Under the pieces are notes generated by a model that saw only the letters and a list, made by a program, of their open reading frames with translations, was not told where the DNA came from and did no database searches. From contig NC_135356.1 in assembly GCF_051622035.1 (NCBI RefSeq), positions 3,534,001-3,598,000 of the forward strand: DNA of 64,000 nt, given 5' to 3'. A program made the position numbers and the translations under genes. How positions within the stretch are numbered: the first letter of the stretch is position 1; each line of letters begins with the position of its first letter. This DNA is from Arctopsyche grandis (lineage: Eukaryota > Arthropoda > Insecta > Trichoptera > Hydropsychidae). Positions 22,152 to 54,782 of the stretch are shown one piece after another.

Positions 22152-25312
<3,161 letters not shown>

Positions 25313-25404
25313 ATGTTCGGAAAAACTTGTTTTTTCGAAGGATGTAACGAAATCTGAAAAAAAAAGAAAACTGTGATTTAAGTTGAAAATCAGAATACAG
25401 TGTA

Positions 25405-30340: not shown

Positions 30341-33300
30341 CAATATTCAATTAAAAATATCACATTGAATTAATCAGTCTTATATGTTAACGGAACAACT
30401 GATCAATAGCTAATGCATGCTCATTCTAAAAAAAGTACAATAAAAGGGCGCGTGTCGAAGACACCATATTTGGTTGAAATAGGTATATTCTATTAACAAC
30501 TATCACATTGAACTTATCAGTCTTATTAATTGAACTTACTAATTATTAATAGTATACATTTAAACAGGCACATAACTTTGTTTTGCCAATCACAATATTC
30601 AATAGCTTTGCTATATAAGGCTACGTTCATGTAAAATACTAAATATTATAACGAGATGTTACCCAAAAGAGGTCTACATCGAATACAAAAATTATTAAGG
30701 AAATTGTACTCTAATATCAGTGTAGTTCTTGGAACATCAATTTGAAATGTTTATATTTAATAAATATTTTAGATTTCATACTGAATAACAATTAAATAAA
30801 CTCACTAGTGTAGTATTATATGACTGTAATTAATACCCTACACCACAAATTAAAAATTCTATAATAAAACTCACAATATTTTCTTAAAAAATATTCAATT
30901 AACAAATATCACATTGAACTTATCAGTCTTATTAATTGAACTTACTAATTATTAATAGTATATATGTAAAAAGGCACATAACTTTGTTTTGCCAATCACA
31001 ATGTCTCATATGTATGTTATCGGAACAACTGACCAATAGCTAATGCATACACATTCTAAAAACCGTACAATAAAAGGGTGTGTATCGAACACACCATATT
31101 CTATTAATAAGTATCACATTGAACCAGTCTTATTAATTGAACTTACTAACTAACAATACATTTGTATGTATAAAGGCACATAACTTTGTTTCGCCAATCA
31201 CAATATTCAATAGCTACGCTATATAAGGCTACGTTCATGTAAAATACTAAATATTATAACGAGATGTTACCCAAAAGAGGTCTACATCAAATAAAAAAAT
31301 TATTAAGGAAATTGTACTCTAATATCAGTGTAATTCTTTGAAATGTTTATATTAAATAAATATTTTAGATTTCAAACTAAATAACAATTAAATAAACTCA
31401 CTAGTGTAGTATTATATGACTGTAATTAATACCCTACACCACAAATTAAAAATTCTATAATAAAAATCACATTATTTTCTTAAAAAATATTCAATTAAAA
31501 ATATCACATTGAATTAATCAGTCTAATATATTAACGGAACAACTGATCAATAGCTAATGCATGCTCATTATAAAAAAAGTACAATAAAAGGGCGCGTGTC
31601 GAAGACACCATATTTGGTTGAAATAGGTATATTCTATTAACAACTATCACATTGAACTTATCAGTCTTATTAATTGAACTTACTAATTATTAATAGTATA
31701 TATGTAAAAAGGCACATAACTTTGTTTTGCCAATCACAATATTCAATAGCTTTGCTATATAAGGCTACGTTCATGTAAAATACTAAATATTATAACGAGA
31801 TGTTACCCAAAAGAGGTCTACATCAAATAAAAAAATTATTAAGGAAATTGTACTCTAATATCAGTGTAATTCTTTGAAATGTTTATATTAAATAAATATT
31901 TTAGATTTCAAACTAAATAACAATTAAATAAACTCACTAGTGTAGTATTATATGACTGTAATTAATACCCTACACCACAAATTAAAAATTCTATAATAAA
32001 AATCACATTATTTTCTTAAAAAATATTCAATTAAAAATATCACATTGAATTAATCAGTCTAATATATTAACGGAACAACTGATCAATAGCTAATGCATGC
32101 TCATTATAAAAAAAGTACAATAAAAGGGCGCGTGTCGAAGACACCATATTTGGTTGAAATAGGTATATTCTATTAACAACTATCACATTGAACTTATCAG
32201 TCTTATTAATTGAACTTACTAATTATTAATAGTATATATGTAAAAAGGCACATAACTTTGTTTTGCCAATCACAATATTCAATAGCTTTGCTATATAAGG
32301 CTACGTTCATGTAAAATACTAAATATTATAACGAGATGTTACCCAAAAGAGGTCTACATCAAATAAAAAAATTATTAAGGAAATTGTTCTCTAAAATCAG
32401 TGTAATTCTTTGAAAGCATATATTTGAAATGTTTATATTAAATAAATATTTTAGATTTCAAACTAAATAACAATTAAATAAACTCACTAGTGTAGTATTA
32501 TATGACTGTAATTAATACCCTACACCACAAATTAAAAATTCTATAATAAAAATCACAATATTTTCTTAAAAAATATTCAATTAAAAATATCACATTGAAT
32601 TAATCAGTCTAATATATTAACGGAACAACTGATCAATAGCTAATGCATGCTCATTATAAAAAAAGTACAATAAAAGGGCGCGTGTCGAAGACACCATATT
32701 TGGTTGAAATAGGTATATTCTTTTAACAACTATCACATTGAACTTATCAGTCTTATTAATTGAACTTACTAATTATTAATAGTATATACATATGTAGAAA
32801 GACACATAACTTTGTTTTGCCAATCACAATATTCAATAGCTTTGCTATATAAGGCTACGTTCATGTAAAATACTAAATATTATAACGAGATGTTACCCAA
32901 AAGAGGTCTACATCGAATACAAAAATTATTAAGGAAATTGTACTCTAATATCAGTGTAGTTCTTGGAACATCAATTTGAAATGTTTATATTTAATAAATA
33001 TTTTAGATTTCATACTGAATAACAATTAAATAAACTCACTAGTGTAGTATTATATGACTGTAATTAATACCCTACACCACAAATTAAAAATTCTATAATA
33101 AAAATCACAATATTTTCTTAAAAAATATTCAATTAAAAATATCACATTGAATTAATCAGTCTAATATATTAACGGAACAACTGATCAATAGCTAATGCAT
33201 GCTCATTCTAAAAAAAGTACAATAAAAGGGCGCGTGTCGAAGACACCATATTTGGTTGAAATAGGTATATTCTTTTAACAACTATCACATTGAACTTATC

Positions 33301-35700
33301 AGTCTTATTAATTGAACTTACTAATTATTAATAGTATATACATATGTAGAAAGGCACATAACTTTGTTTTGCCAATCACAATATTCAATAGCTTTGCTAT
33401 ATAAGGCTACGTTCATGTAAAATACTAAATATTATAACGAGATGTTACCCAAAAGAGGTCTACATCGAATACAAAAATTATTAAGGAAATTGTACTCTAA
33501 TATCAGTGTAGTTCTTGGAACATCAATTTGAAATGTTTATATTTAATAAATATTTTAGATTTCATACTGAATAACAATTAAATAAACTCACTAGTGTAGT
33601 ATTATATGACTGTAATTAATACCCTACACCACAAATTAAAAATTCTATAATAAAAATCACAATATTTTCTTAAAAAATATTCAATTAAAAATATCACATT
33701 GAATTAATCAGTCTAATATATTAACGGAACAACTGATCAATAGCTAATGCATGCTCATTCTAAAAAAAGTACAATAAAAGGGCGCGTGTCGAAGACACCA
33801 TATTTGGTTGAAATAGGTATATTCTTTTAACAACTATCACATTGAACTTATCAGTCTTATTAATTGAACTTACTAATTATTAATAGTATATACATATGTA
33901 GAAAGGCACATAACTTTGTTTTGCCAATCACAATATTCAATAGCTTTGCTATATAAGGCTACGTTCATGTAAAATACTAAATATTATAACGAGATGTTAC
34001 CCAAAAGAGGTCTACATCGAATACAAAAATTATTAAGGAAATTGTACTCTAATATCAGTGTAGTTCTTGGAACATCAATTTGAAATGTTTATATTTAATA
34101 AATATTTTAGATTTCATACTGAATAACAATTAAATAAACTCACTAGTGTAGTATTATATGACTGTAATTAATACCCTACACCACAAATTAAAAATTCTAT
34201 AATAAAACTCACAATATTTTCTTAAAAAATATTCAATTAACAAATATCACATTGAACTTATCAGTCTTATTAATTGAACTTACTAATTATTAATAGTATA
34301 TATGTAAAAAGGCACATAACTTTGTTTTGCCAATCACAATGTCTCATATGTATGTTATCGGAACAACTGACCAATAGCTAATGCATACACATTCTAAAAA
34401 CCGTACAATAAAAGGGTGTGTATCGAACACACCATATTCTATTAATAAGTATCACATTGAACCAGTCTTATTAATTGAACTTACTAACTAACAATACATT
34501 TGTATGTATAAAGGCACATAACTTTGTTTCGCCAATCACAATATTCAATAGCTACGCTATATAAGGCTACGTTCATGTAAAATACTAAATATTATAACGA
34601 GATGTTACCCAAAAGAGGTCTACATCAAATAAAAAAATTATTAAGGAAATTGTACTCTAATATCAGTGTAATTCTTTGAAATGTTTATATTAAATAAATA
34701 TTTTAGATTTCAAACTAAATAACAATTAAATAAACTCACTAGTGTAGTATTATATGACTGTAATTAATACCCTACACCACAAATTAAAAATTCTATAATA
34801 AAAATCACATTATTTTCTTAAAAAATATTCAATTAAAAATATCACATTGAATTAATCAGTCTAATATATTAACGGAACAACTGATCAATAGCTAATGCAT
34901 GCTCATTATAAAAAAAGTACAATAAAAGGGCGCGTGTCGAAGACACCATATTTGGTTGAAATAGGTATATTCTATTAACAACTATCACATTGAACTTATC
35001 AGTCTTATTAATTGAACTTACTAATTATTAATAGTATATATGTAAAAAGGCACATAACTTTGTTTTGCCAATCACAATATTCAATAGCTTTGCTATATAA
35101 GGCTACGTTCATGTAAAATACTAAATATTATAACGAGTTGTTACCCAAAAGAGGTCTACATCAAATAAAAAAATTATTAAGGAAATTGTACTCTAATATC
35201 AGTGTAATTATCAGTGAACGTATATATTTGAAATGTTTATATTTAATAAATATTTTAGATTTCATACTGAATAACAATTAAATAAACTCACTAGTGTAGT
35301 ATTATATGACTGTAATTAATACCCTACACCACAAATTAAAAATTCTATAATAAAAATCACAATATTTTCTTAAAAAATATTCAATTAACAAATATCACAT
35401 TGAATTTATCAGTCTTATATGTATGTTATCGGAACAACTGACCAATAGCTAATGCATACACATTCTAAAAACCGTACAATAAAAGGGTGTGTATCGAACA
35501 CACCATATTCTATTAATAAGTGTCACATTGAATCAGTCTTATTAATTAAACTTACTAACTAACAATACATTTGTATGTATAAAGGCACATAACTTTGTTT
35601 CGCCAATCACAATATTCAATAGCTACGCTATATAAAGCTACATTCGTGTAAAATACTAAATATTTAAATGAGATGTTACCCTAAAGAGGTCCACATCATA
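30340..35700. repeat. Tandem array of ~0.55-kb units 3' of micro-exon gene A
   Basis: Nine occurrences of the anchor CTCACTAGTGTAGTATTATA (30801, 31397, 31933, 32483, 33035, 33587, 34139, 34735, 35287) give spacings of 536-596 bp, mostly 552. Each unit is very AT-rich. Every intact one carries GCCAATCACAATATTCAATA and, 25-30 bp on, GCTATATAAGGC. Two unit types exist: one with CGTGTCGAAGACACC, one with GTGTGTATCGAACACACC. The order of types around 30.84-31.98 kb is repeated around 34.18-35.3 kb, so there is a higher-order period of about 3.34 kb. No coding capacity. One diverged unit lies inverted at 50270-50700, beside gene B. Confidence 0.92.
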
Positions 35701-35755
35701 AACAAAAATTAAGTATTAAGGACATTAAGAAAATTATCGATGCACAGTTGATGAT

Positions 35756-38016
35756 TCAGAATTTTGGCCGAGGTCGAAGAGAATACGGGTGAGACGGAGG
35801 CAATCGCCTTTTTTTACATATTTTTGACTGGCGCATCGCTAACCTACAATAGTACAATAGTAATGATTAATACAGCAGATGATAACAAATAATAATAATG
35901 TGTACATAAATATAAATATGTATTGTACAAGCACGACTTACGTTTCCGAAGTCATCGGTGATCCCGATCTAACCGGCTCCACGTCGCTATCAGAGCTGAA
36001 ATTTAAATGCGATTGCCATTATAAACATATCCAAGAATTGATAATAATACAGGAATAATATTAATCGGTGAGACTTACTCTGTTGATGAGGATGCAGCCT
36101 CGCTATTGGACCTGAAAGAATGGTAATTGTAATTATAAATATTGTTAGACATGGAGAAACATTCACAAATTACATACATGTTCGATGCACTTATTACTTA
36201 CATTTCCGATGGCGCTTTCCAGTCATTATCCTCGGATTCACTCTCCGAGCTGAAATTTTAATGCGATTGCGATTATTAACATATCGTAGATAATCAGATA
36301 CTATACATATATGTATAAGTATAAATAAATAGACATGTGTGATTTACCCGTTCAACGAGTTAGCACACTCTTTGACGGACCTGAAATTAAAGTGATTGTA
36401 ATTATGAATACTGTCTACCATCGATAAATAATGTAAGCAGTCAAAACTTACATTTCAGGTAGCGTGGCCCGGAAAAGGGGTTCTTCGTTTGCACAACCCC
36501 TTTTGAGGCTGAAATTGAAAATAATTCGATTCATAACAAATCCAAGAACTGACAACAGAAACAATATGTAAATGTAAGTTAAAACTTACGTTCGGTATAT
36601 AACGGTCGAATTTTGACTGACTTCGGAATCGCTATCCGAGCTGAAATTTAAATTAGTGCGATTATTTACATATCCGGAAATTAATAATGTGATTTACTAT
36701 AAATTATCATACGTATATTATAAGCAGTTACAACTTACGTTCCGTATAAAGTCAGCGAGCTTTCACTTTTTGTTTCCGAATCACAATCCGAGCTGAAATT
36801 TAAAAGCGATTGAAATTATTGACATATCCAAGAATCGATAATATAATAATACAGAAACAATACATATAAATGTATGTGACTTACTCGTTTGGCAATGTTG
36901 CTGCCTCGGAGATGGGTCTGAAAGAAAGGTGGTTGTACATAATTATGGATAAAGTCAATCATTGATAAAAAATCATACTCGTACTGTAGGTACATTAGAA
37001 CAACTTACATTTTCGATGGCCCTGCCGAAGGTGGGCTCATCATCTCAACTTCGTTTGCAATTATTAACATATCCAAGAATTGATTCGCGATATACGGGAA
37101 TAATATATATATAAATGAACGTGACGTGACGTGACTTACTCTCTTAACGGTGTTGTTGGCTCGGTGATGGACCTGAAAGAAAATTGATTGTAATTATTAG
37201 TATCGTCAATCATTGATAAATAATCAAACTCATACTGTAGGTACATTCAAACAAATTACATTTTTGATGACGATGCCGAGGCTGGGCTCAACATCTCAAC
37301 ATCGGATGACCAGCTGAAATTTATAAGCGTTTGCAATTATTAACATATCCAAGAATTGATTCGCGATATACGGGAATAATATATATATAAATGAACGTGA
37401 CTTACTCTCTTAACGGTGTTGTTGGCTCGGTGATGGACCTGAAAGAAAATCGATCGTTGATAAATAATTAGACTCGTACTGTTTGTACATTGAAACAACT
37501 TACATTTTCGACGGAGATGCGGAGCGTCGACTCCTCATTGCCACACCGAGCCGACTCTCGGAGCTGAAATTGAAATTGAAATTGATCGCGATTAATAATA
37601 GACAGAAAAACATCGGTTGGTACACAGTTGGGAATGACTTACTCGCGAGGCTCTCGTGGATCCAAGATGTGCTCCAGCTCGGCAGCAATCGACTGCCACA
37701 TTTTCTTGACTTTGGCGGCGCTGATCTTGGAGACGTCTAACGAGGTCGGGTTGATCCTGGACTTGGTCTTGATGACTCCTCGAGGCCGGTGTCGGATCCG
37801 GTCACCCAACCAGGTCAGAAGTGGAATCCTGGACCCGAAGGCTGCAGCTTGCCGGTCGATGAAGCTGGCGACGCGGCCAGCTCGGACTCCGACCGTTCGC
37901 ATCGATTCGCAAATTGACACGTTGCTGTTGCCATTTGCATTTGCATCTCCACTGCCACTGCCACTGCCACTGCCACTGCCACTGCCTCCGTTGGGGTTGG
38001 GGTTGGGGTTGGCCAT
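35756..38016 (-). CDS. Micro-exon gene A: Ser/Asp/Glu-rich protein with modular exons
   Basis: Fourteen exons, minus strand: 37643-38016, 37504-37563, 37406-37438, 37260-37313, 37140-37172, 36885-36917, 36739-36792, 36590-36640, 36452-36508, 36348-36380, 36202-36249, 36079-36111, 35942-35995, 35756-35843; 334 aa. The ATG at 38016 is in good context (AAGATGGCC). Exon 1 encodes MANPNPNPN, a (GS)n run, then a basic region with KISAAKVKKMWQSIAAELEH. The next 12 exons are 33-60 nt, all multiples of 3, all phase 2-2. They mostly alternate a long type (DSDSE... or SDVEM...S.SKM) after a TTTCAATTTCAG-like acceptor with a short 33-nt type (MSI(S/T)E...). The last exon gives a basic tail (MRQSKICKKRRLPPSHPY, stop at 35756). 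No known family recognised. The Ser-acidic clusters are likely CK2 phosphorylation sites (inference). Confidence 0.75.
37009..37051 (-). pseudogene. Decayed micro-exon in gene A (acceptor deleted)
   Basis: Aligned with the exon at 37260-37313, this copy keeps VEM(M)SPP...SK and its donor (GTAAGTTG), but about 27 bp containing the branch/acceptor and first codons are gone, so AACGAAG meets TTGAGATG. Using that AG would shift the frame into a stop. It is best treated as skipped. Confidence 0.6.
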
Positions 38017-38384
38017 CTTCAGTTGCTCAATTGATCTTTCAGAGTGCGTCGACCGAAACGTGCAGACTCGACCGAACCCGCGCACCGACTGTCACTTTCG
38101 CAAAACTCGCCTCTCGAAGTAAACACAAATGTTATCGGAAAAAAATATGTAGTTAACCGCTTAACAACCGCTTCAATTTTATTTTACTTGTCAACGCAAC
38201 GTTTATCGAACTAAATTTCACTAATTTACTTTTTCGAACTAAATGCATTTCATTTATAAAATACAATCGTAAACAAATCCGATTATCGTTATCCGGATGA
38301 CAACACTTTAAATATTATTTTATTTTTCATTGTAGAAAATGTTAGTAATTGCATTGTATCGAATATAATATGCAAATACTTGCA
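38017..38384. promoter_or_regulatory. Upstream region of micro-exon gene A
   Basis: The first ~95 bp above the ATG (minus sense) is GC/CpG-richer than its surroundings and probably 5' UTR. No clear TATA box was recognised. The remainder is AT-rich with no gene. Confidence 0.4.
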
Positions 38385-38990
38385 CAAGACAAAAGTTCTA
38401 CTTCCGGTTGTCGGATTTTGTTCAAATTTTTTTTATTATTTAAAATCAGTATAATTATTATACACATTAAATATCAAGAAGATAAAAATAATTTCAAAAT
38501 AAAATAATTAAATATTATTAAATATTTTTATTATTTAAATAAAATATTAAATTTTATTTTATTTTTCATTGTAGAAAATGTTAGTAATTGCATTGTATCG
38601 ATCGAAATACATTTACAATTAGAAGATGCAATCGAAAAAATGTATTCTTATTTATCCGGTTGACGACAGTTACAGTAAATATTACTGATCAGATTGACAG
38701 CAATAATCAAAATATTGCACCATCGTATCGCATCGCATCGCGTCCCGTGCCGAGTGACGTTCGCAGCCACTGGCGAGTCATTTGTCTGAAAGGAAAGGAA
38801 AGGAAAAAATTCAAGTATTGATCTTGTATTAATGTTATGAAAATAAAAAAACTCACTAAATTCAATAAACCGGAAGTGGGATTTTATCCTCTTAGAAAGG
38901 TCAAAAATGTTGTCGCCTGGATCCTGTCCACACCCGTGAACGTATTAAGCTGAAAATTTATATTTGTATTATTTATGTACGAACTTAGGG
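38385..38990. repeat. ACCGGAAGT repeat family, copies 1a/1b
   Basis: 38385-38485 (CTTGCACAAGACAAAAGTTC ... TACTTCCGGTTG) is complementary to 41880-42010. 38807-38990 (ATTCAAGTATTGATC ... CCGGAAGTGGGATT) is repeated directly at 41624-41815. A third related copy is 51600-51720. 38745-38812 is an inverted match to 29583-29655. 38320-38350 and 38560-38590 are also repeats of one another (CATTGTAGAAAATGTTAGT). Confidence 0.7.
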
Positions 38991-38992
38991 TT

Positions 38993-39130
38993 ACACGACA
39001 ATTGGTGCAAGTCCAAAATGTTCAACGACAAAATGTACCCGAAAATTAGTGCACTGACAAAATGTACCCGCGACAAAATGTAAACGGAAAAAATGTTCAA
39101 GCGACAAAATGTTCAAAAATGTTCAAAATG
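38993..39130 (+). repeat. Phrase-repeat element, GACAAAATGT type
   Basis: ACAAAATGT plus ACCC, TCAA or AAAC recurs about eight times with drift, ending in three AAAATGTTC copies. Architecture like the GGTCAC and TCGAAAG elements. Confidence 0.5.
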
Positions 39131-39665
39131 TTCAACCGTATCCAATATTTTCTTATTTAAATTGAAAAAAAAAACTTTCCGAGCGTATGAACAGGGCTTC
39201 TCAACCGTCTCCAAAATTTTCTTTATTTCAAATGAATAATCTACTTTTCATCGTACACATCGCGGGCGTTATTAAATTAGTATAAATGTCAGGGGTTCTC
39301 AACCGTATCCAATATTTTCTTATTTAAATTGAAAAAAAAAACTTTCCGAGCGTATGAACTGCAGATTACATTGCATTAGTTTATACGGCAGGGCTTCTCA
39401 ACCGTCTCCAAAATTTACTTTATTTCAAATGAATAATTTACTTTTTATCGTACACATCGCGGGCGTTATTAAATTAGTATAAATGACAGGGGTTCTCAAC
39501 CGTATCCAATTTTTTCTTATTTAAATTGAAAAAAAAAAAGTTTTTATGCGTATTGCAGATGTCAATGAATTAGTTTAAATGTCAGGGGTTCTAAACCGTA
39601 TCCAATGTTTACTTATTTAAATTGAAAAAATTACTTTTTAAGCGTATGTCATTGAATTAGTTTAA
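39126..39665. repeat. Tandem repeat with two alternating half-units
   Basis: Half-unit one (TCAACCGTATCCAATATTTT...) recurs at 39126, 39299, 39497 and 39594. Half-unit two (CTTCTCAACCGTCTCCAAAA...CACATCGCGGGCG) recurs at 39198 and 39392. Full period is 170-200 bp. No gene. Confidence 0.8.
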
Positions 39666-40502
39666 CACCCTCACAGAGGTGCGAAGACCTCTGTGAGGGA
39701 CAGTACATATAAGATAATTATAAATTTTAGAGTTATTTAGAGTTAAGTAATTAAGATGTATTTTTAAAATTAGCTTTATAGCTAAGATAATATATAAATA
39801 AATAAACGTAGAACGCCACGTTTTATTTTGATAAAACAGTTCCCAGCCAGCGGTCACGTGTACTTCGAGTTTTAACATTGAATGTGACCTTTACGGCGTC
39901 TCTAAATCAAATTCACATAATTTTTTTCCAAAATTTTGTTTAAAATGCAATTATTTTATTTCTTCTGCAAATAAGTCTTCTAGTGTACATTCGCAAGCTA
40001 TATGTATAATGAAAGTTTTTTTTAAACTTAATATTTCATTATACAATTATAAGGCAAGAATATCAAATATTAATTTAGATAAATTTAATGTATTATTTTA
40101 CAGTCAAGTCTCGAATTACGACTATTCGGATTAACGATGGAGAGATTTTACTTAGTGTTTAGCAAAAAACAAATGTATGAATCGGACATTGTATTGTAGA
40201 AAAAAGGAGGTATGTAAAAAAGGCAGACATTAGAAATTTACAGCTAAAATTATTTTTACATACCTCCTTTATGTTTCACATTAATATTGCATCATTTACA
40301 ACTAACTATTATGCGTAAGGGTTGCATACAAAATTTAATTTTGACATGTAAAAGACAATTAAAATGTAAATGTAAAAAAAATCACGCGCGTTGAATAGAG
40401 ATGGCAAAACAATAATATATTTTGAAATTAGTTCTATGATTGACAAATGAATTGTCTACACAAATGGACGAAAATATTGATCTTATTATAAATATTATTA
40501 TT
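39666..40502. other. Intergenic; two hairpins and a Tigger-like end
   Basis: 39667-39698 is a near-perfect hairpin (CCTCACAGAGGTGCG / ACCTCTGTGAGG). 40205-40270 is a MITE-like inverted repeat (AAAGGAGGTATGTAAAA at both ends). CAGTCAAGTCTCG near 40103 resembles a pogo-type terminus. No gene seen. Confidence 0.5.
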
Positions 40503-40503
40503 A

Positions 40504-41606
40504 TGGAGGATGAACGAATGAGACGACTGGCATGTTAATGCACGTGTTTATTATATGACAGCTGAAGACAGAGTGAGTAGTAGCTCTCCGAACCCAGCCG
40601 GGTTGGTCCCCACTCGCAGGAAGGCAACCAAACTCGACCATGTCGTATAAGCGAGCCGCCACATCACTCCCCCCCCAGCATCAGCGATACCAAAATTACA
40701 AAGAAACAAATTTTACAAAAGAAAAAAAATTATTGTTACACAAAGAGAAAAAAATTATTACGTGGGGAGAAAAAAAAAATGTTGACGTGGGTCATCCGCT
40801 GTGTACATAGGTGTACCGCCCTGAATGGTCGGTAGATTCGAGGGCGGTGACGTCGCGAGCAGGACGGTGGGTGGTCCGATGGTCGCGCGATGCGATGCTG
40901 CGGCGGCGCCGCTCTTCCGAGGCTGATGTCGGTTGGTGGGGCGGCGGGGGCGGCAGGGGCATCGATGTGGTTGATGATACTCCGAGCTGGACTGTGAGTC
41001 GTTGTGGCTCGTGGAGGTGTTGTAGCGCTACCGCCCGTCTCGGCGTGACGACGCTCGTGGGGACGGACGGGGCCTTGATGATGATGATGATGATGATGGT
41101 GCTGAGGTGGTGTATGTCTTGTGGTGCTGGATGACCGTTCTATGTGTAGTGGATCGCGCATGACTCCACATCCAGCTGTCAAGATCGTCGTCTCATTCGC
41201 TCCCCCATTTTTTAAAAGCACCTGTCGTCGACGTTGTGGCTGGACGTCGGTAGGTAGGTAGGTAGGTAGGTAGCCGTGTCTGCTCGTTTATTGTCACCCG
41301 CGGGCCGCGACGCGTGTTGATGGCGATGGGGGCGCGGCGGGTAGCTTCTCCCGCCTGACTCGGCGAGGCAGGGATGAGCGGCATGGGATGAGCGGCATGT
41401 TGAAATTGATCGAGGCTGCGTGGCTCGATGTCGGGGGTCACCAGTATGGAGGATGAACGAATGAGACGACTGGCATGTTAATGCACGTGTTTATTATATG
41501 ACAGCTGAAGACAGAGTGAGTAGTAGCTCTCCGAACCCAGCCGGGTTGGTCCCCACTCGCAGGAAGGCAACCAAACTCGACCATGTCGTATAAGCGAGCC
41601 GCCACA
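40504..41606 (-). mobile_element. Short non-autonomous LTR retrotransposon (TRIM-like), copy 1
   Basis: Two 160-bp LTRs (40504-40663, 41447-41606). On the minus strand they start TGTGGCGGCTCG and end CATCCTCCA, with an AATAAACACG signal inside. A G-rich polypurine tract (GGGGGGGGAGTGA) abuts the downstream LTR. TGGTGACCCCCGACATCG, a primer-site-like sequence, follows the upstream LTR. The ~780-bp interior has no gag/pol, only low-complexity frames (HHHHHHHH, proline-rich). Flanks TTATT / TTATA may be the target duplication. Confidence 0.82.
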
Positions 41607-42377
41607 TTATAAATATTGATTGAAAAAAATTCAAGTATTGATCTTGTATTAATGTTATGAAAATAAAAAAAACTCACTAAATTCAATAAACCGGAAGTGG
41701 GATTTTATCCTCTTAGAAAGGTCAAAAATGTTGTCGCCTGGATCCTGTCCACACCCGTGAACGTATTAAGCTGAAAATTTATATTTGTATTCTTTATGTA
41801 CGAACTTAGAGTTGCTAACGTTTTGGTCAGAATTCGTAAACCGGAAGTAGTATTTTTTTTTAAACAATATTTCATTATTTTATTTTGACCTTTTAAATTA
41901 TTTTTATCCTCTTGATATTTAATGTGTATAATAATTATACTGATTTTAAATAATAAAAAAAAAATGAACAAAATCCGATAACCGGAAGTGAAATTTTGTC
42001 TTGTGCAAGTTTCCATACATTTGCCCTCAATTTGTATCGCTATCATACGATAGTTATTAGTTCAATTTCGAATTTTGTTTTGTTACCCTCTTATATTCCT
42101 CAAATACATAGATAAAGTCATGGGTTGGTCACACCCGAATTGTTGTTTTTTTGTTGACAATGCGTAGTATCTTATTGAGTTTATCTACAAAGTATTTGGT
42201 GCAGTATTGTTCATACAAATATTTTAAACGCAATTGAGTGTAGAAGCACACTTTTTATCCGAAATAGACGTTTGCTTCCTTCCGAAAAAAAATTACTTGG
42301 GAAGATTAAAACGAAAATATTTTTTATTCTACATTTCTATAATATCTTTAAAAAAAAAAAATTAAATGTTAATACTA
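41607..42377. repeat. ACCGGAAGT repeat copy 2 and gene-free DNA
   Basis: 41624-41815 is a direct repeat of 38807-38990; 41880-42010 is an inverted repeat of 38385-38485. 42011-42377 shows nothing recognisable. Confidence 0.65.
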
Positions 42378-43457
42378 TGGAGGATGAACGAATGAGACGA
42401 CTGGCATGTTAATGCACGTGTTTATTATATGACAGCTGAAGACAGAGTGGGTAGCAGCTCTCCGAACCCAGCCGGGTTGGTCCCCACTCGCAGGAAGGCA
42501 ACCAAACTCGACCATGTCGTATAAGCGAGCCGCCACATCACTCCCCCCCCAGCATCAGCGATACCAAAATTACAAAGAAACAAATTTTACAAAAGAAAAA
42601 AATTATTGTTACACAAAGAGAAAAAATTATTACGTGGGGAGAAAAAAAATTGTTGACGTGGGTCATCCGCTGTGTACATAGGTGTACCGCCCTGAATGGT
42701 CGGTAGATTCGAGGGCGGTGACGTCGCGAGCAGGACGGTGGGTGGTCCGATGGTCGCGCCGATCAATGCGATGCTGCGGCGGCGCCGCTCTTCCGAGGCT
42801 GATGTCGGTTGGTGGGGCGGCGGGGGCGGCAGGGGCATCGATGTGGTTGATGATACTCCGAGCTGGACTGTGAGTCGTTGTGGCTCGTGGAGGTGTTGTA
42901 GCGCTACCGCCCGTCTCGGCGTGACGACGCTCGTGGGGACGGACGGGGCCTTGATGATGATGATGATGATGATGGTGCTGAGGTGGTGTATGTCTTGTGG
43001 TGCTGGATGACCGTTCTATGTGTAGTGGATCGCGCATGACTCCACATCCAGCTGTCAAGGTCGTCGTCTCATTCGCTCCCCCATTTTTTTAAGCACCTGT
43101 CATCGACGTTGTGGCTGGACGTCGGTAGGTAGGTAGCCGTGTCTGCTCGTTTATTGTCACCCGCGGGCCGCGACGCGCTCTGTTGATGGCGATGGGGGCG
43201 CGGCGGGTAGCTTCCCCGCCTGGCTCGGCGAGGCAGGGATGAGCGGCATGTTGAAATTGATCGAGGCTGCGTGGCTCGATGTCGGGGGTCACCAGTATGG
43301 AGGATGAACGAATGAGACGACTGGCATGTTAATGCACGTGTTTATTATATGACAGCTGAAGACAGAGTGGGTAGCAGCTCTCCGAACCCAGCCGGGTTGG
43401 TCCCCACTCGCAGGAAGGCAACCAAACTCGACCATGTCGTATAAGCGAGCCGCCACA
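42378..43457 (-). mobile_element. Short non-autonomous LTR retrotransposon (TRIM-like), copy 2
   Basis: Same family as copy 1: LTRs 42378-42537 and 43298-43457, only a few differences between them. The interior differs from copy 1 mainly by small indels (for example GTAGGTAGGTAG repeat number). A perfect 5-bp target duplication ATACT flanks it if the element is taken from 42377. Confidence 0.85.
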
Positions 43458-43920
43458 ATACTTTTAAAATATGAATTTATTATTAGTTTTTTAATTGTTG
43501 TGTTGTCTTTAAATGGAATATAAATTTTATTAAAATTCATCGAAACTGTTTATTATTTGAAATTAAACTGTTCATAAAAATAGATGCTAAATAGACGTTA
43601 AAAATGCAAAATTTGACAAAAATACATGCCCAAAATACGTGTCTCTACCCATTACTAATGAATTGATTGACAATGACATTAGTGCGGAAGGTCCAGATAA
43701 ATTGACAATGGATATTCATGTCCGATCATTATTTACCTCTCTTTCCTCGGCCCGGCCTAAAAAATTCTCCTGGCCTAAATCCCATTAGCAAATTCATATT
43801 TTAAAAGTATACGAGATACTGCACCAGATATTACGCATTGTTTACAAAAAAAAAAAAAAAAAAAAAATACATGTACAATAAATAAGAGACATAATATATA
43901 TGTAAATATAAACAGTATGG
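43458..43920. repeat. Gene-free stretch with a dispersed repeat
   Basis: 43650-43790 is an inverted, diverged copy of 61735-61950 (CTACCCATTACTAATGAATT, TCCAGATAAATTGACAATGG, ATCATTATTTACCTCTCTTT). A 28-bp poly-A run is near 43848. Confidence 0.6.
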
Positions 43921-44480
43921 GGGACCAATCACAGGCGCGTATTCGAAACGCCGGCAGCGTGGTAGTGGTAGTGGTAGTGGTAGTGGTGGGGGAGTGAGTG
44001 GGGAATTTGTTGCCGGCAGCACTACTACTACTGCAGTACGTTTTGACAGTTGCGGTCTGACAGCCGGTGCGTGCGCTGCTCTCGTCGCCGTGTCGTCTCC
44101 TTCGGTTGCCGACCAATCGAGTACGTACTCTTTCATTCAAATACATATGTATATTGGAAATGATACCTTTACGTACGTCATTTTTTTACATACGCGTACT
44201 TCAATCGTCTGACATTTTGACATTTTGACATTTTGACGTTTCCCGTTTACCGTTGCCTTTCAGCTCGTACTTGAAGCTCGAGCTCGAGGCTTTCCGCTTT
44301 CCTTCGCTCTTATTTTCTTCGACCTTCCGTCATCACAGCACTTTTTCTCGAGACACCGTCTACGTATACGTATCCGTATCCGTCACAATGTGCAATCCTC
44401 AATGTCATTCGCACATGATTCCTTTCGATCGCTTTAGCATCTTTCAATCTGAAATACTCTCATCCCAGTGAGGTTAACGT
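43921..44480 (+). promoter_or_regulatory. GC-richer candidate 5' region of micro-exon gene B
   Basis: CpG-richer than the surroundings, with GTGGTAGTGGTAGTGG repeats and possible donors (TCGAGTACGT near 44119, CCAGTGAGG near 44467). Gene B's first coding exon needs an upstream non-coding exon, and this is the nearest plausible place. No recognisable protein. Confidence 0.25.
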
Positions 44481-45775
44481 TAAGGTTGACGTTTGGATAA
44501 ATGGTGCAATCTAACCTTAACCTCTAACTCCCGCGGCTTCTATCCTCGATCTTACTTCCAAGATACATACAGGTATTCTTGTGACAGTGACGGATAACAG
44601 TCTACATACCAGTGTATACCAGTGCTACTCTAACATTTTCAGTTGGCGGACCGGCATATTCAGTAACATTCAGTAATTCTCACGGACCACCATCGTATTT
44701 TTAAATTGTCATATTAATTAAGCTCCTCTATCCTCGTTCGTGAATTGCTAGCAATCTTCCATGATTTTAGTTTTGTTACGTTTCAACCTATCCGTATTGT
44801 CAAAACAATATGACATTCTTCCTTGCAAGGAAAAATTTCATTCAAAATCCAAAAAAATAGACTTGGGCTCCACTCGCTACCGGTGCGCGATGGTCAATTT
44901 TATCGATCGAATCGATTCGATCTCTGATTTCTGATTTCATCATTTCTTTGCTTTTCTTCGATTCAATATCATTCGATCAGCATAGAAGAGCTCGACCCCT
45001 TGGTCCGGTGCGTTTGGAGCAGTAGGTGCATATATGTATGTACATACTTCAATAACATTCAATGAAAAAGGTTTAACAGCCAATTTTTGACACATCTCAT
45101 AGCCTCCTCGTTCACCCACTCCGTCCACTTTTTATGACGACCATCATCATTGCCCGAATAGTATACATACTTATGAATAGTATATACATCCACACAACAT
45201 TCTCCAGAACTACATAGGTCGTCTCATTTCGCTATTGCCCCCATCAAAGTCAGATCCAATCTTTTCATTTCTCTAACAACATTGTGAGGCACATGGCTTT
45301 CCTCGTCTCGGGGTCGCGGCCACTGGAGTTGTCATTCAAGTGCTGCTCACGAGTGTCAGAAAGTGTGCCGAGCTGTATGATATGTACGTCATACATCCCC
45401 GCACTTCTGTACAGTCTGCAGCTGATGATGGTTTCTCTCTTACCTTCTGCACCGCAGTAATTCTTTTGAATTTCTCTAACTTGCCAATGCTGCTGGGGAC
45501 AGGGACAGGGACTTGTTTCTGGAGTTAGCTTCTCACGATTGGGTGGAGTCACGGAGTCACAAGCTAACTAAGCCCAGGCTGTGCTTTTGTTAAGTGGCGG
45601 CGGCACTTCGCCAATTCGCTACTGTCCCGAGACTGTCTCAGTGTTGTGTAATTAATTATGCAAACGATTCTTACTTAAATGTAAAATGTACCTCGTGATT
45701 GAATTTTATTTACATACATACATATGTATTTTATCGTTTACAACTTTAATCAGCACGGTTTTTTCTTTTTTTCAG
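44481..45775. other. Uncharacterised stretch upstream of gene B
   Basis: A minus-strand open frame at 45265-45552 (CPCPQQHWQVREIQ...) and another at 44940-45128 have coding-like composition but match no family I know and lack clear splice partners. No further structure seen. Confidence 0.3.
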
Positions 45776-45801
45776 ATTTCGTTACATCTTTCGAAAATAA
45801 C

Positions 45802-48800
45802 ATGTATTCACCATACGACTCCGAACCGTCGTCAGATACCGAAATGGCTTCCGATGCTGAAACGCCAACGGATCGAGAAATGTTGACGGAGCATGAAGTC
45901 TCGACGGATGACGAGTCATTGCCAGACTCTTATACGTTTAATCATAAAAGGGCTAAACGTATGAGAGTCTCTAATAGGTAAAATAATACTATTTAATATT
46001 ACGTACAAATGTGTGTTATAATTAGGGGCCGGAAACGTGCCGGCCGCCTATTGTTCAATTGTTGTAAATGCTTTGTAAAAAAGGTTCGGCAAACCTTTAA
46101 CAATGCATTTACAATCTTTGAACAATAAACAGCCCCTTCAGATTCCGGCCTCTACATATGTAGTTATAATGATATATTTAAAAGTGTAAATCTGTTTGAA
46201 ACGTGTTTCATTTCATTACATATGTACATATGTACATATATCGAAAGTGTATTATATGGAAGTTGTACTCTCATATGTACATATGTAAGTGCAGGATGAT
46301 TTTTCAGACTGACGCAATGTTTCGGATAAACGCAATATCCAGACCATTTTCATGATTGTTTCCGGTGTTTCAAATATATTTACCAATTTTTAATACCAGC
46401 AGCAGCCTCTACAGAGCTACACTTTTTTCGAAAATTATTCCAATTTTATATTAGATTTTTCAAAATTTGACTTTTTTTTTTTTATTCAAGATATCGATCG
46501 AGATGAACTTCAAATAAAAATGCTGATTGAATTTATGATTCTATAAAATAATTCACAAGTAATTATATGTACGGTCGAAATGATCGTATACAATTTCTTG
46601 TGCTGTTTTATACGATCGAGGCTTCCATTGGCATCCTAGGTATATATATTTAAATTTTGTATTTTGCACATGCTTTCTGAAAATTCTTTTCATAATTTAC
46701 ATGCACCTAAGTACATGTATGTATGTATGTAGTGTTTAGCGAAAGCTTTTGCGGACTTGCTTGTGCGACTTCAGATGGTCGTGCTAACTGCTAACAAATA
46801 GCTTACGTATACTATTTTTTGATTGATTATTTATTATTTTGTGCGCTTACATCAAGCGACGTGTTGACATGCAATATACATACATATGTATAATTTCAAG
46901 GAATCCTGAATCCATTGCTTTCATCCATTGATTTGTTGCTTCCCTTGTTCTTCCCACTGACTTGAAATTGAACAATATGCATATTGACGAAACGTCTAAA
47001 ACTGGAATGCTTGCTTTTTATGTATTTTTAACTATAATATTATTATTGTAATCAATGTTGTGAAATCGACCGAAACGTTTCCATATGAAATACATATCGA
47101 TTACAATTCATTGTTGGATGTTTCTTCATATAACGATTTTTAACATTCAGAGTGAGATTTTTCACGACTCGACTCGACAACATTGATTGTAATGATATTA
47201 TGTGTGTATGTAATCTATTACATTACATATACATATGTACATACGTATGTATAATGCTTTTATGCTTATGATTATTTATAGTAAATCCCACATATATTTA
47301 TATATTGTTTCTGTATTATTATCAATTCTTGTACATATATGTATATGTATGTTATTAATCACAATAATTTCAATTTTGGCTCGGATAGCGATGATGAAGA
47401 AAATCGCCGACCAACTACACCATGCGAAACGTAAGTGTTGACTGCTTATATACATAATATCTGTATTATTATCAATTCTTAAATATATATATTATTAATC
47501 GCAATAATTTCAATTTCAGCTCAGACAGCGATTCCGAACGGAGCTCGCTCGCTACGGTACGCGGAACGTAAGTTTTAACCCTGTATATATTATACCTATA
47601 ATTATTTATTTATATTAAATCACAAACATAAAGTTATATATTGTTTCTGTATTATTATCAATCTTTGGATATGTTATTAATAACAATAATTTCAATTTCA
47701 GCTCTGATAACGATTCTGGAGAGGGCTCGATCGCTACGCTGCGCGGAACGTAAGTTTTAACCCTTTATATTACATATATGTATACCTATAATTATTTATA
47801 TTAAATCACATACATATATTTATATGTTGTTTCTGTATTATTATCAATTCTTAAATATATATTATTAATCGCAATAATTTCAATTTCAGATCAGACAGCG
47901 ATTCCGAACGGAGCTCGCTCGCAACGGTACGCGGAAAGTAAGTTTTAACCCTTTATACAATATAGACCTATAATTATTTATATTACATCACATACATATA
48001 TTTATATATTGTTTCTGTATTATTATCAATTCTTGGATATGTTATTAATCACAATAATTTCAATTTCAGCTCGGATAATGACCGCGATTCCGGCCTATGT
48101 CAAGCCTCAACTATTTTATACGAAACGTAAGTTTTAAGTATGATTATTTATAGTAAATCACATTTATTTATATATTATATATTGTTTCTGTATTATTATC
48201 ACTTCCTGGATATATGTAAATAATCGCAATAATTTCAATTTCAGCTCGGATAGCGATTCCGAGGTTAGTCAAACCCCGAGCACTTTATACAGAGCGTAAG
48301 TTTTAACTTATATTTTACTATACGTATGATTATTTATAGTAAATCACAATTAAAATCGCTTTTAAATTTCAGGTCCAATCGCGACGTTAAGATGAGGAAC
48401 CCGGTATCCAGAATGTAAGTTGATTCTCTATAATTACAGTATGAGTATGATCATTTATCATCGATTGACAATATTCATAATTACAATCATTTTACTTTCA
48501 GGTCTATCTGCTCAGACGCGGGCCCATCGAAATGGTAAATCATATCTATTTATATATGTACATATTATCCATGTTTTATTATTATATGGATGACAGTTTC
48601 TATATAATATTTTATATAATGCTTCTATCTATACCAGCGGTTTCCAAACTTTATGCTACCTTTTATTTTTCAATAGATATAATAATATAGACACGTTTTA
48701 AATAATAAACCTTTAATGACAGAATAATAAAAATGTTTGGCTATAACATAAATTTATATATTAAATTACTAATTAAACTACATCTCAGAACACATCAAAA

Positions 48801-50217
48801 TTAAATGCGAAGGATGTTGTTGTTTATTGGCACAAAGTTTAGTTTTATCAATTTTTCTTTTTCGATGGTTGTCAGCTCGAATTCGTCTTCTTCTTTAATG
48901 TAGTTATTAATTGATTCTGGATCCACAACAACTTTGGGAAATCAAGGTCTTTGAAATAATTGGAAAAATGCAGCACTAAACCATCCAAGTGGTCAATAAA
49001 AAGATTTTTACTTCTTCTCCGGATAATTTTTTATAGTAATTAAATGTATATATAAAAATGAAAGAAAAATAAAAATAAACATTCATGCATTGAATTTTTA
49101 CTGTTAAGCTACGATATGAAGTTTTATTTATTTGGAGTTTATAGATTATGGTATGAAAATTATTTTTTTATTAAAAAGTTTTGGTGCCTCCCAGTTTGGA
49201 AACCGCTGATCTATACCCTATATAGGCTTATGACTATATTTATAGTAAATATATTTATGTATATATTGTTTCGGTATTATTATCAATTCTTGGATATGTT
49301 ATTAATTGCAATAATTTCAATTTCAGCTCAGAAAGTGATGTGGAAATGATGAGCGTTCGCTCGGCATCGCCAACAAAAATGTAAGTTGTTTCAATGTACA
49401 GAACAGTACAAGGATGATTATTTATCAATGATTTACAATATTCATAATTACAATCACTTTTCTTTCAGGTCCATCTCCGAGGCGGGATCTTCGTCAAACG
49501 AGTAAGTCACATACATATACATATATTGTTTCTGTATTACTATCAATTCTTGGATATATTAATAATCGCATTCGCTTTTAAATTTCAGACTCAGCGATGT
49601 TGAGATGAGGAGCCGGAGCTCAGTGTCGCCTACCAAAATGTAAGTTGTTTCTAATATTATATAATTGTATGTTTTTTTTCTTCTTTTTTGTATTTTTTCC
49701 TTTTGCTTTTTGTTCTATCTATTATTATTATTATTTTTTTATGCCACAATGGTCCGAAACTTTTAAATAAATAAATAATTACAGTACAATTATGATTATT
49801 TATCAATGTTTGACAATATTCATAATTACAATAACCTTACTTTCAGGTCCATCTCCTCGGACGCGAGTTCATCGAAAAGGTAAAATCGCATATCTTTACA
49901 TATTATTCCTGTGGTATTTTCAATTCTTGTTGGTTACGTTATGCTAACAATCGCAATCATTTCAATTTCAGCTGTGACAGCGATGTGGAGCTGATGAGTA
50001 TCGGATCATCAACGCTTTAAGAAATGTAAGTCGCGGTTATTTATAACTTATGTACATATTATTACTGATCATCTGTTGTATTAATAATTACTTTTATTTG
50101 TTTAGGGATTTCGCCAACAATTCTCCAATTCCCAAGTTAGCGATTCGGCAGTCAAAAATGTATAGGAAATATTCTTCAAACCGACGTCCTCGATTTAAAA
50201 GATGTTCAAATAATTAG
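45802..50217 (+). CDS. Micro-exon gene B: Ser/Asp/Glu-rich protein with modular exons
   Basis: Exons: 45776-45977 (ATG 45802), 47520-47567, 47702-47749, 47890-47937, 48070-48126, 48245-48295, 48373-48414, 48502-48534, 49327-49380, 49469-49501, 49589-49639, 49847-49879, 49972-50025, 50106-50217. A further exon body, 47380-47430, has a GG instead of AG acceptor. Internal exons are all multiples of 3, phase 2-2. Exon 1 encodes an acidic start (SDTEMASDAETPTD, STDDESLPD) homologous to the SINHCAF-like gene, then a basic patch (NHKRAKRMR). The repeats follow (SDSDSERSS, SESDVEMMSVRSASPTKM, SISEAGSSSNE). Exon 49972-50025 contains TAA in frame (50018-50020): inclusion ends the protein at 240 aa; skipping it gives 261 aa with a basic tail (KLAIRQSKMYRKY...) homologous to gene A's end. 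Function unknown. Confidence 0.75.
46023..46162. mobile_element. Palindromic hAT MITE (family 1), copy 2
   Basis: Starts TAGGGGCCGGAAACGTGCC and carries the same palindromic core as 1899-2043, with an extra CATATGTA at the right end. Perfect 8-bp target duplication GTTATAAT (46015-46022, 46163-46170). In intron 1 of gene B. Confidence 0.85.
48635..49208. mobile_element. Non-autonomous hAT element in gene B
   Basis: Termini CAGCGGTTTCCAAACTTT and CAGTTTGGAAACCGCTG; perfect 8-bp target duplication ATCTATAC on both sides (48627-48634, 49209-49216). 574 bp, no transposase. It enlarges the intron between exons 48502-48534 and 49327-49380. Confidence 0.88.
49670..49790. repeat. Retroposon 3'-tail-like insert in gene B intron
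   Basis: T-rich run, ATTATTATTATT, ATGCCACAATGGTCC and AAATAAATAAATAA; shares GCCACAATGGTC with 25640-25680. Probably a LINE or SINE 3' end. Confidence 0.4.
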
Positions 50218-50955
50218 ACTGATACTAGAAGAGTAAAACGTCTACTTAACTTTTGTGTTTGATGATGGATACCTCTTTTGGGTAACATCTCATTGTAATA
50301 TTTAGTATTTTACATTAATATAGTCTTATATAGCGTAGCTATTGAATATTGTGATTGGCAAAACAAAGTCATGTGCCTTTATATATATTTATTCTTTATA
50401 TATGTATATAAATGTTAAATAAGTAATTAGTATCTTCAATTAATAAGACTGATCCAATGTGATAGTTGTTAATAGAACACATACATACCTATTTCAACCA
50501 AATATGGTGTTCGATATATGTACACCCCTTTATTATATGTACATTCTATAGAATGTGCATGTGTTAACTATTTGTTAGTTGTTCCTATAATACATATGTA
50601 TATAATATAAGACTGATAAATTCAATGTGATATTTGTTAATTGAATATTGTTTAAGAAAATATTGTGATTTCTATTATTGAATATGAATTTGTTATTATA
50701 GTTATATAAGTGATACAAGTGAGTTTATTTATTTGTTATTTAGTATGAAATCTAAAATATGCAAAGTCTATTCTGTAACTTGAAGATTTAATCGAAATAT
50801 AATTTGGTATTAAAAAAGGTCTTTTTATTTAAATATTTTTTCCCTTTGTAAATATTCTTTTGTCGATTTTGCCGATTCATCTATTTTTGCCTGCTATATC
50901 TTCTTGCACAATTTGATTGACGTCAATGCTTTGGCTCAATAATGTAAGAAGTGTC
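50218..50955. repeat. 3' flank of gene B: one inverted unit of the 30-35 kb array plus outer flank
   Basis: 50275-50390 read on the minus strand is the array unit core (GCCAATCACAATATTCAATA, GCTATATAAG, TGTTACCCAAAAGAGGT). 50440-50700 matches the rest of a unit in diverged form. 50760-50950 matches the outer flank 30150-30330. Together with the exons this makes the two loci an inverted duplication. Confidence 0.82.
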
Positions 50956-53412: not shown

Positions 53413-54153
53413 TTATTTCCTTAAGGTGTAGGCTTCGAGTTCCGCATCCAACTGTTCGACGGTGGGTGGGGGTGGACGTTGTCGGCCACCACGTCCACCA
53501 CCGCGCCGACCACCTCCTCTTCTTTGTCTTCCAGCACCAGCACCAGCACCGCGACTCTGTCTTGAGCGTTGCTGTGGAAGTGCTGCTCGGGCATTTCTGT
53601 CAACAACGGCGCCTTGACGATTTGCTGCGCCCCCTCGGCGGCCGCCTCCCAGGGCTTCCGCGATGTCTGACGTCACCAACTGAATGTTCATGGCGCGGCC
53701 GTCGAGCGGCACACCGTTGTATTCCTTGATCGCTTTCACAGCATCCGCACGTCGTTCGAAAACAACATTAGCGGTACCCAACGATCGTCCAGATCGGTCG
53801 TAGTGCATGGACGTGCGGCGCAGCACGCCAAACTCGCCGAACAGCTCCTGTATGTCCGACTCGGACACGCCAAAGTCGAGATTGGACACGAGCAGCTTGG
53901 TGGAAGTGGTCGAGTTTAAGTCTGTCGCCGCTTTCTTTATGCCAAAGTCGTACATGTCGTGCTTCCATGCGCCGTTGACATCGCCCCTGGTGTAGGCGAG
54001 TGACTTGCGCTGGTTGCGTTGGATGCCGCCGGCTCGCACTCGCCCTCGCCCTCCCCCTCCTCCTCCTCCTCCTCCTCCTCCTCCCGCCCCTCGCCTGCCG
54101 CGCTTCGACGACCTGATGATGTCGTCCAGACTCATGTCGATTCTGTACACCAT
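53413..54153 (-). CDS. ALYREF: THO/TREX mRNA export adaptor, ALYREF (Aly/REF) family
   Basis: Single-exon gene, 246 aa, start ATG at 54153. Order of parts: N-terminal UAP56-binding motif [13 protein letters not shown] (residues 7-19), a poly-Gly/RG-rich arm, then a spacer with GAWKHDMYD. An RRM follows from about residue 85, with RNP2-type [10 protein letters not shown] and RNP1-type LGTANVVF. Next is a second Arg/Gly-rich arm ([13 protein letters not shown]), then the C-terminal UAP56-binding motif [11 protein letters not shown]. This is the full ALYREF architecture and size. The protein couples spliced mRNA and the TREX complex to nuclear export. The stop codon overlaps an AATAAA hexamer (AAATAAAG), so the 3' UTR may be very short. 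No intron is present, so a retrocopy or an intronless true gene are both possible; the frame is intact. Confidence 0.93.
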
Positions 54154-54782
54154 GGTGGGTTCGGCTTTGGCTTGGTTGGGGACGCGTTCAGATCACACAC
54201 ACACACACACGCGCACAAGAGAGACTTCCGTCAGTGAGCAAATGGAGGAGAGGACATCGACCCATACATATGTCGGGACCAATCAAGGATGACGGGCTAC
54301 CAACGGCGGAGTGGGCTCTGGGCAGAGTCACTCGCGCATCCTCCCGGGAGCAGACGCAGTGACCATGGCCTGATTCAGCCAAATCGGCCCCGCTCCCAAT
54401 AAGTGCTAGTGAAACACTCCCCTCCCCAGTGATCAAATAGGGGGAGAGCGACTGATAAATTAAGTGCTGCAAAAACAATTAATTAAATAAACGTCAAAAT
54501 TATAAAAATAGCAGTCATTACAGTCATTCACCTGTCAAAACGAATAACAATAATAAAATTCCATCTGTCAAAACAAACTATAATAACAATTCAAACTGTC
54601 AAACAAGACATTTTTCTTTTTTGATAACAAACAATTATATTATCCAACGAGACATCGATCTCTTTCTTCAATAATAACAACAATAATTCGGATAAACCAT
54701 CATGATTGATCCACTTATGCTAAATCATCTTCTCCGATGAACTTTAACCGTTTGAACTCCCAAAAGCCGTTTCAATTGTACG
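54154..54782. promoter_or_regulatory. ALYREF upstream region
   Basis: Just above the ATG is a (CA)n run at 54197-54210, then GC-richer DNA to about 54450. The remainder has repeated CTGTCAAAACAAA phrases (54535-54610). No TATA box or gene recognised. Confidence 0.35.

Follow-up and report, generated by a model that had tools for sequence, protein, structure and literature searches.

The described systems closest to the locus analyzed here are the micro-exon genes (MEGs) of schistosomes and the bicycle genes of insects. The exons of schistosome MEGs measure 6-81 bp, the vast majority being 15 bp long and most being multiples of three, and the introns range from 100 to almost 5000 bp; the genes encode secreted, variable, multi-copy proteins with a constant signal peptide and, behind it, a conserved hydrophobic motif, and alternative splicing has been reported for them (PMC10526429). 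The bicycle genes of aphids, phylloxerans and coccids have numerous small exons in their interior, nearly all in phase 2, and have been reported to be under strong positive selection; CYC motifs, an N-terminal signal sequence and expression in salivary glands are further bicycle characteristics, and by the authors' own statement, sequence search finds few Bicycle homologues (PMC9168663). Here, we have analyzed a stretch of 64,000 nt (the window; C2:3,534,001-3,598,000, C2 being the contig that bears it) from the 475.7 Mb genome assembly of the caddisfly Arctopsyche grandis (Trichoptera: Hydropsychidae). The window carries a pair of micro-exon genes, A and B, which are probably protein-coding members of a gene family so far found only in A. 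grandis.

Gene A lies on the minus strand (38016-35756) and gene B on the plus strand (45776-50217), in the head-to-head arrangement that the original prediction, made from the letters of the window, had correctly read. Together they contain 25 micro-exons of 33-60 nt, as defined by a splice-site scan and gene models, which are the basis of all exon coordinates given below unless stated otherwise. Two NCBI proteins of A. grandis represent the family, P0002 (LOC143922832), encoded by gene B, and P0001 (LOC143922837), encoded by A', a near-identical copy of A.

The comparison with schistosomes supports the idea of an insect micro-exon gene pair with a MEG-like architecture. Like the MEGs, A and B have short exons mostly in multiples of three, variable proteins and several copies, and 25/25 of their exons (33-60 nt) are multiples of three within the MEG range of 6-81 bp. 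Unlike the MEGs, as that source describes them, they include no exon of 15 nt, and 19/27 introns are shorter than 100 nt; moreover, the signal peptide of the MEGs is constant, whereas here a polar, acidic stretch comes after the conserved start codon of the family. With the bicycle genes, as described in the corresponding source, they share an insect host, phase-2 micro-exons, orphan proteins and membership of a multi-gene family, but the bicycle genes belong to Hemiptera, whereas A and B are from Trichoptera, encode Ser-rich and acidic products and show no sign of positive selection where it was measured. Protein searches at E≤10, among the best 7979 candidates for A and 981 candidates for B, returned A. 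grandis proteins only and thus no Bicycle protein. When the bicycle structural classifier was applied to seven gene models, with its coefficients as printed (PMC9168663) and a cut-off of 0.72, the scores were 0.011, 0.012, 0.017, 0.034, 0.503, 0.63 and 0.985, and only the last one, that of the P0001 model, exceeded the cut-off, an outcome that is ambiguous because the correct first exon is uncertain. The Val-rich N-terminus that the NCBI model gives P0002 might be a signal sequence like that of Bicycle proteins, but a conserved ATG further downstream argues against it. MEGs and bicycle genes appear to be analogues of A and B and not relatives, homology being unsupported by the sequences. The earlier statement that no insect family with such a sequence is known holds within the candidate sets searched, but it overlooked that an insect family with phase-2 micro-exons had been described (PMC9168663). 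The A/B family itself is apparently undescribed, and the literature searched contained no publication on caddisfly or Trichoptera micro-exons or on this family.

Frame symmetry of the micro-exons

All 25 micro-exons of A and B are multiples of three in phase 2-2, which bears out the predicted lengths of 33-60 nt, the divisibility by three and the phase-2 acceptors and donors. The 27 introns show no such regularity (residues modulo 3 of 9/4/14), and 25 of them measure 65-222 nt. The reading frame of A and B contains a single in-frame stop, whereas the two alternative forward offsets have 25 and 13; in 500 composition shuffles the mean was 16, and none (0/500) reached 1 or fewer.

A plain scan for TTTCAG followed by the first GTAAG, GTAAA or GTAAT within 24-99 nt gave the same picture. 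On the sense strand all matches were multiples of three, both in A (12/12) and in B (12/12, 11 of them stop-free), while the antisense strand yielded one match in A and none in B. The remaining window, taking both strands together, contained 12 scattered matches, eight of which were multiples of three and six of these stop-free. Since the background fraction of multiples of three is not below chance, the contrast lies in the clustering and homology of the matches and not in this fraction alone. A run of short internal exons of a single phase, all multiples of three, was found in A, B and A'. Going beyond the original prediction, it should be noted that tandem duplication of one symmetric exon pair is by itself enough to yield exons of the same phase.

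Structure of genes A and B and their NCBI models

The micro-exons are of two types, i.e., a long module L (42-60 nt), typically encoding S-D-S-D-x-E, and a short module S (always 33 nt) of the M-S-x-S-E-A type. The scan and the models agree with the predicted 12 usable internal exons plus one defective body per gene.

Gene A (all exons on the minus strand) starts with an open exon of 124 codons, the MANPN exon, is followed by 12 usable micro-exons and ends in a terminal exon with its stop at 35756. The MANPN exon is the candidate first coding exon (37643-38016), with an open frame of 124 aa from its ATG and a phase-2 donor; it gave no Pfam match at E≤0.01, no protein match at E≤1 among 3416 candidates, and a low-confidence helical model in structure prediction (mean predicted local distance difference test, pLDDT, 58.2). 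It is followed by an L exon of 60 nt (37504-37563), an S exon (37406-37438), an L exon of 54 nt (37260-37313) and a second S exon (37140-37172) that equals the first one letter for letter and occupies a position where A' carries a different exon. Next comes the defective L body (approximate limits 37010-37055), whose acceptor is lost and whose counterpart in A' is intact. The array continues with an S exon (36885-36917), three L exons of 54, 51 and 57 nt (36739-36792, 36590-36640 and 36452-36508), an S exon (36348-36380), an L exon of 48 nt (36202-36249), an S exon (36079-36111) and an L exon of 54 nt (35942-35995). The terminal coding exon (35756-35843) encodes a basic C-terminus and the stop, and P0001 ends with the same peptide. 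Downstream of A, the adjoining region 30328-35726 (minus strand) consists of about 10 tandem copies of about 540 bp that are homologous to the 3' end of B (50193-50760).

Gene B (all exons on the plus strand) comprises a head exon of 202 nt (45776-45977), with a conserved ATG at 45802 and a phase-2 donor, 12 usable micro-exons, a TAA-bearing exon and a terminal exon ending at 50217. The first micro-exon (42 nt, 47389-47430) has lost its original acceptor (before 47380), which reads TTTTGG, and is usable solely by way of an AG located nine bases further in. Then follow L exons of 48 nt (47520-47567, 47702-47749 and 47890-47937), 57 nt (48070-48126), 51 nt (48245-48295) and 42 nt (48373-48414), an S exon (48502-48534), an L exon of 54 nt (49327-49380), an S exon (49469-49501), an L exon of 51 nt (49589-49639) and an S exon (49847-49879). 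The last L exon (49972-50025) contains an in-frame TAA, and the terminal exon (50106-50217), which encodes a basic C-terminus and partly resembles that of A, is in frame only when 49972-50025 is skipped.

The NCBI model of B adds two upstream exons to what the original prediction had described. P0002 is a letter-for-letter translation of window exons of gene B, joining exon 1 (43917-43993; doubtful as coding), exon 2 (44050-44120), the head exon, nine micro-exons and a tenth one (49972-50025) in which the coding sequence ends at the TAA (50020). It leaves out the micro-exons at 47389, 47520 and 49847; the last two have ordinary splice sites and the first one has the makeshift acceptor mentioned above, and these omissions are the sole hint of combinatorial alternative splicing. 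P0001 starts at a Met within a micro-exon although a MANPN exon is present upstream of A' too, and every piece of P0001 tested occurs in A'. By eye, P0002 begins with a polar stretch containing two Arg, followed by ten valines encoded by a GTGGTA repeat, a stretch of small residues and then SVA-DQ. The ATG stands at the same place in 7/7 head-exon copies read, but in three of them (L048, L049 and L050) the upstream frame does not stay in register. Thus, translation most likely starts at the head-exon ATG, and the annotation has probably been extended too far in giving P0002 its valine-rich start.

Copies elsewhere in the genome

The original prediction did not extend to copies outside the interval. 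Genome searches scored the best candidates only, so that the copy numbers given here are lower bounds. The window region 29.4-57.4 kb recurs inverted immediately to the right (C2:3598001-3638000, L009-L012), in pieces separated by unmatched stretches; most of the long pieces share 95.7-99.5% identity, and the outermost left ones 88-92%. The resulting gene order is A, B, B', A'. A and A' differ at 5 of 1005 exon sites and 26 of 1228 intron sites, B and B' at 0 of 981 exon sites and 10 of 3799 intron sites, and in the flank at 50.3-55.3 kb the arms differ at 2 of 5028 sites. Such near-identical arms may represent a young palindrome or an assembly fold-back. In A', 13/13 micro-exons are intact, symmetric and stop-free, and a 14th scan match falls in the terminal exon. 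Relative to A', A has lost one acceptor and, in place of another exon, carries a second copy of the 37406 S exon, with the frame remaining intact.

The head exon was found at eight places at E≤10, all on C2, namely, B, B', a third relative C and five loci outside the window; the weakest matches were two at E 0.33 and L048 at 0.013. The head exon of C (25172-25354, minus strand) has an open frame, and no micro-exons were recognised near it. Two of the outer loci, L049 (C2:389012) and L050 (C2:510200), carry the same head peptide in opposite orientation, perhaps as a second inverted duplication. At L054 (C2:12944600-12947600, positions 1889-2881) there are three near-identical 57-nt in-frame acceptor-donor matches about 470 bp apart, which belong to another repeat, unlike the A/B family.

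A further array, D (C2:2.123-2.126 Mb), is symmetric in 11/12 plain-scan matches and in 12/13 with a wider pattern. In addition, copies of a five-exon cassette lie scattered over C6, C9, C12 and C13, in some places in tandem with shared flanking repeats. From 44 cassette matches in the loci retrieved, 6 from loci represented twice and 6 partial or over-long ones were removed, leaving 32 aligned, and without L013, L014 and L015 the set comprised 29 cassettes (from L016-L018 and L020-L042), several of them incomplete, with at least one of the five exons absent. As only the best candidates were scored, the genome may hold more of them.

A Z-linked ampliconic family of the sex chromosome was considered as another identity for these copies. 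Triose-phosphate isomerase is a Z marker in moths; its three matches in the genome, the best on C3, included none on C2, and this identity is only weakly rejected because a single marker was used. The contigs C84 and C122 carry uninterrupted triose-phosphate isomerase frames of 241 codons with near-identical scores and are possibly bacterial.

Selection and divergence

Selection on the head exon was estimated by the Nei-Gojobori method (NG86) on six distinct copies, leaving out B' and L049 as duplicates. Synonymous divergence (dS) exceeded nonsynonymous divergence (dN) in 13/15 pairs (e.g., 1.27 vs. 0.26 and 0.37 vs. 0.13), with one tie and one pair with saturated dS, and the head exons are thus under purifying selection. 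Every copy is open from the ATG to the donor. The codon alignment forces gaps of whole codons, and therefore gap length is no separate evidence. In C, L045, L046, L048 and L050, the head exon has a C-x-x-C stretch at its end, which B lacks.

The 29 dispersed cassettes look neutral. The proportions of synonymous (pS) and nonsynonymous (pN) differences are 0.051 and 0.053, and introns differ at 0.052, i.e., exon and intron of the cassette unit mutate alike and provide a neutral control. Among the 131 cassette exons, 13 are out of frame, 34 lack a splice site and 4 contain a stop, and only 3/29 cassettes are fully intact. Exon bodies without a splice site amount to 2/26 in A and B vs. 34/131 in the cassettes.

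Measured against the cassettes, the tandem units of gene B are unusual in that their exons have diverged more than their introns. Summed over ten unit pairs, 171 of 483 exon sites and 151 of 1079 intron sites differ (103 of 619 for the intron body without splice sites). Among the module pairs, exon divergence exceeds intron divergence in 113/136 long and 25/28 short ones. In the comparison with the intron body, the exon excess is significant in 7/10 unit pairs (Fisher p<0.05), the others being U1-U2 (0.83), U2-U3 (0.056) and U1-U3, where the direction is reversed (0.25). Positive selection on the micro-exons was rejected as its explanation since pS exceeds pN, both over all module pairs (0.72 vs. 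0.49 and 0.54 vs. 0.39) and in the closest module groups (0.28 vs. 0.14 and 0.32 vs. 0.28), and synonymous change in excess of replacement change means that the exon excess is no evidence for it. Possible explanations are that the introns are under constraint or that they are younger than the exons and have been partly homogenised. In a nearest-neighbour test of within-gene intron homogenisation, the nearest neighbour came from the same gene for 18/41 introns vs. 20/41 exons.

Protein properties

The products are Ser-rich and acidic as predicted, with isoelectric points of 4.7 (P0001) and 4.4 (P0002) and 27-28% Ser/Thr. CK2-type sites are enriched in both, with 24 in P0002 (11.9 in shuffled sequences, a count reached by 0/1000 shuffles) and 14 in P0001 (7.8 in shuffled sequences, reached by 8/1000). 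The S-x-E motif of secretory kinases of the Fam20C type is not enriched (0 vs. 3.7 and 3 vs. 3.8 in shuffled sequences). Acidic, disordered CK2 substrates are characterized by clusters of S/T-x-x-D/E between basic ends, and A and B share both traits with them but have modules that correspond to one exon each; no homologue was found. In Pfam, nothing above the cut-off was found for the products of A or B, P0001 giving a single sub-threshold match (COLFI, E 0.11), and a PDB sequence search with P0002 found no relative. In protein searches at E≤10, A matched solely P0001 (among the best 7979 candidates by shared words) and B matched only P0002 and P0001 (among 981 candidates).

Other features of the window

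The spacer between A and B contains a tandem duplication (40489-41609 vs. 42363-43460, 95% identity). The segments 55943-57383 and 62560-64000 are inverted copies with 99.86% identity of an element that shows a weak, sub-threshold DUF4371 match. A long open frame (53413-54192, minus strand) contains RRM and FoP_duplication domains and is Aly/REF-like. An Rfam scan of the window gave no matches at the gathering threshold, and the tRNA scan of the window gave none.

Discussion

It seems rather likely that A and B belong to a lineage-restricted family of intracellular, disordered, acidic phosphoproteins that has expanded as a pair of micro-exons, one long and one short, was duplicated in tandem. 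In its gene plan, a head exon whose start codon is conserved is followed by an L/S array in phase 2-2 and by a terminal exon that is short and basic, gene A being an exception because its first exon is of another kind and is not used in the NCBI model. Symmetric exons would have been duplicated in tandem again and again to build the arrays. Any other exon would shift the frame on being duplicated, lost or skipped, and symmetry would thus be both cause and product of this growth. The comparison of A with A' shows that frame-neutral exon loss is tolerated in evolution, and it is probable that part of the transcripts leave out individual micro-exons, full combinatorial use being no more than possible. 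If expressed as proposed, the product would be an acidic protein with many sites for CK2-type phosphorylation between basic or cysteine-bearing ends, in which the number of modules would set the charge and the number of docking sites. Module number, in turn, would depend in the first place on the gain and loss of exons and, to a lesser degree, on their being skipped.

Several observations weigh against this proposal. Exons of the same phase can be explained without alternative splicing, the alternation of L and S exons is not strict, with seven L exons in succession in B, and the first exon of A is absent from P0001. The NCBI models may be partly ab initio, and the ten-valine run of P0002 upstream of the conserved ATG could be taken for a secretion or membrane signal. 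Five head exons appear to stand without micro-exons of the family type, as none could be recognised over some 4.5 kb of downstream sequence for those at 12.94, 0.51 and 0.39 Mb or in the 1.5 kb next to those at 35.02 and 2.10 Mb; decay or long introns may be the reason. The pair C-L046 shows no sign of constraint (dS = dN = 0.026, with one synonymous and four other differences), and the AlphaFold model of P0002 from a single sequence has a mean pLDDT of 38.7, a low value that, obtained in this way, is weak evidence for disorder.

A quite possible alternative, although we would not bet on it, is that all micro-exons are joined constitutively, their phases being a footprint of duplication and the variety arising between genes or over evolution instead of between transcripts. 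The tandem units duplicate intron and exon together, and P0001 includes all micro-exons of A' downstream of its own start without any skip, both as this alternative would expect; P0002, however, drops three micro-exons, two of them with ordinary sites, and B needs a choice at 49972-50025, because otherwise the TAA ends the protein before the terminal exon. The same evidence divides the original prediction of combinatorial splicing of phospho-regulated modules, where the modules do carry an excess of CK2-type sites, but the combinatorial part does not follow from identical phases, which are expected from tandem duplication. That prediction had alternatively proposed a secreted or nuclear protein, and a nuclear or cytosolic location fits better. 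A secreted effector or silk-associated phosphoprotein of MEG or bicycle type, with NCBI exons 1-2 as its signal peptide, is an unlikely reading; the N-terminus of P0002, the phase-2 architecture and the one model of seven that passes the bicycle classifier (0.985 against 0.72) speak for it, but the valines stem from the GTGGTA repeat, the conserved ATG lies downstream of them with an upstream frame that is not kept in L048-L050, S-x-E stays at or below the shuffled level, and six of the seven models fail the classifier.

More improbable still is that A and B are merely better-preserved copies of a spreading non-coding or pseudogenised cassette. The neutrality of the 29 dispersed cassettes, the acceptor lost in A, the lost acceptor and gained stop in B, and the equality of dS and dN between C and L046 would fit such decay. 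Against it stand the single in-frame stop and the 25/25 symmetric exons of A and B, the 13/13 of A', the purifying selection on head exons across loci and the existence of NCBI models for A' and B. Returning to the family of intracellular phosphoproteins, a bolder version, which we regard as doubtful, would be a caddisfly-lineage family of intracellular micro-exon phosphoproteins evolved independently of MEGs and bicycle genes, with every micro-exon serving as one phosphorylatable module, up to 2^12 transcript subsets from A or B, and the neutral cassettes on other contigs as a reservoir for rebuilding the arrays by conversion.

A and B add another, apparently unrelated lineage with phase-uniform micro-exon genes, in a setting outside the parasite or plant-effector context and probably without secretion. 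With the comparison of A and A', array D and the neutral cassettes as an internal control, the origin of micro-exon genes becomes testable in one genome, and so does the question of whether frame symmetry serves splicing or duplication only.

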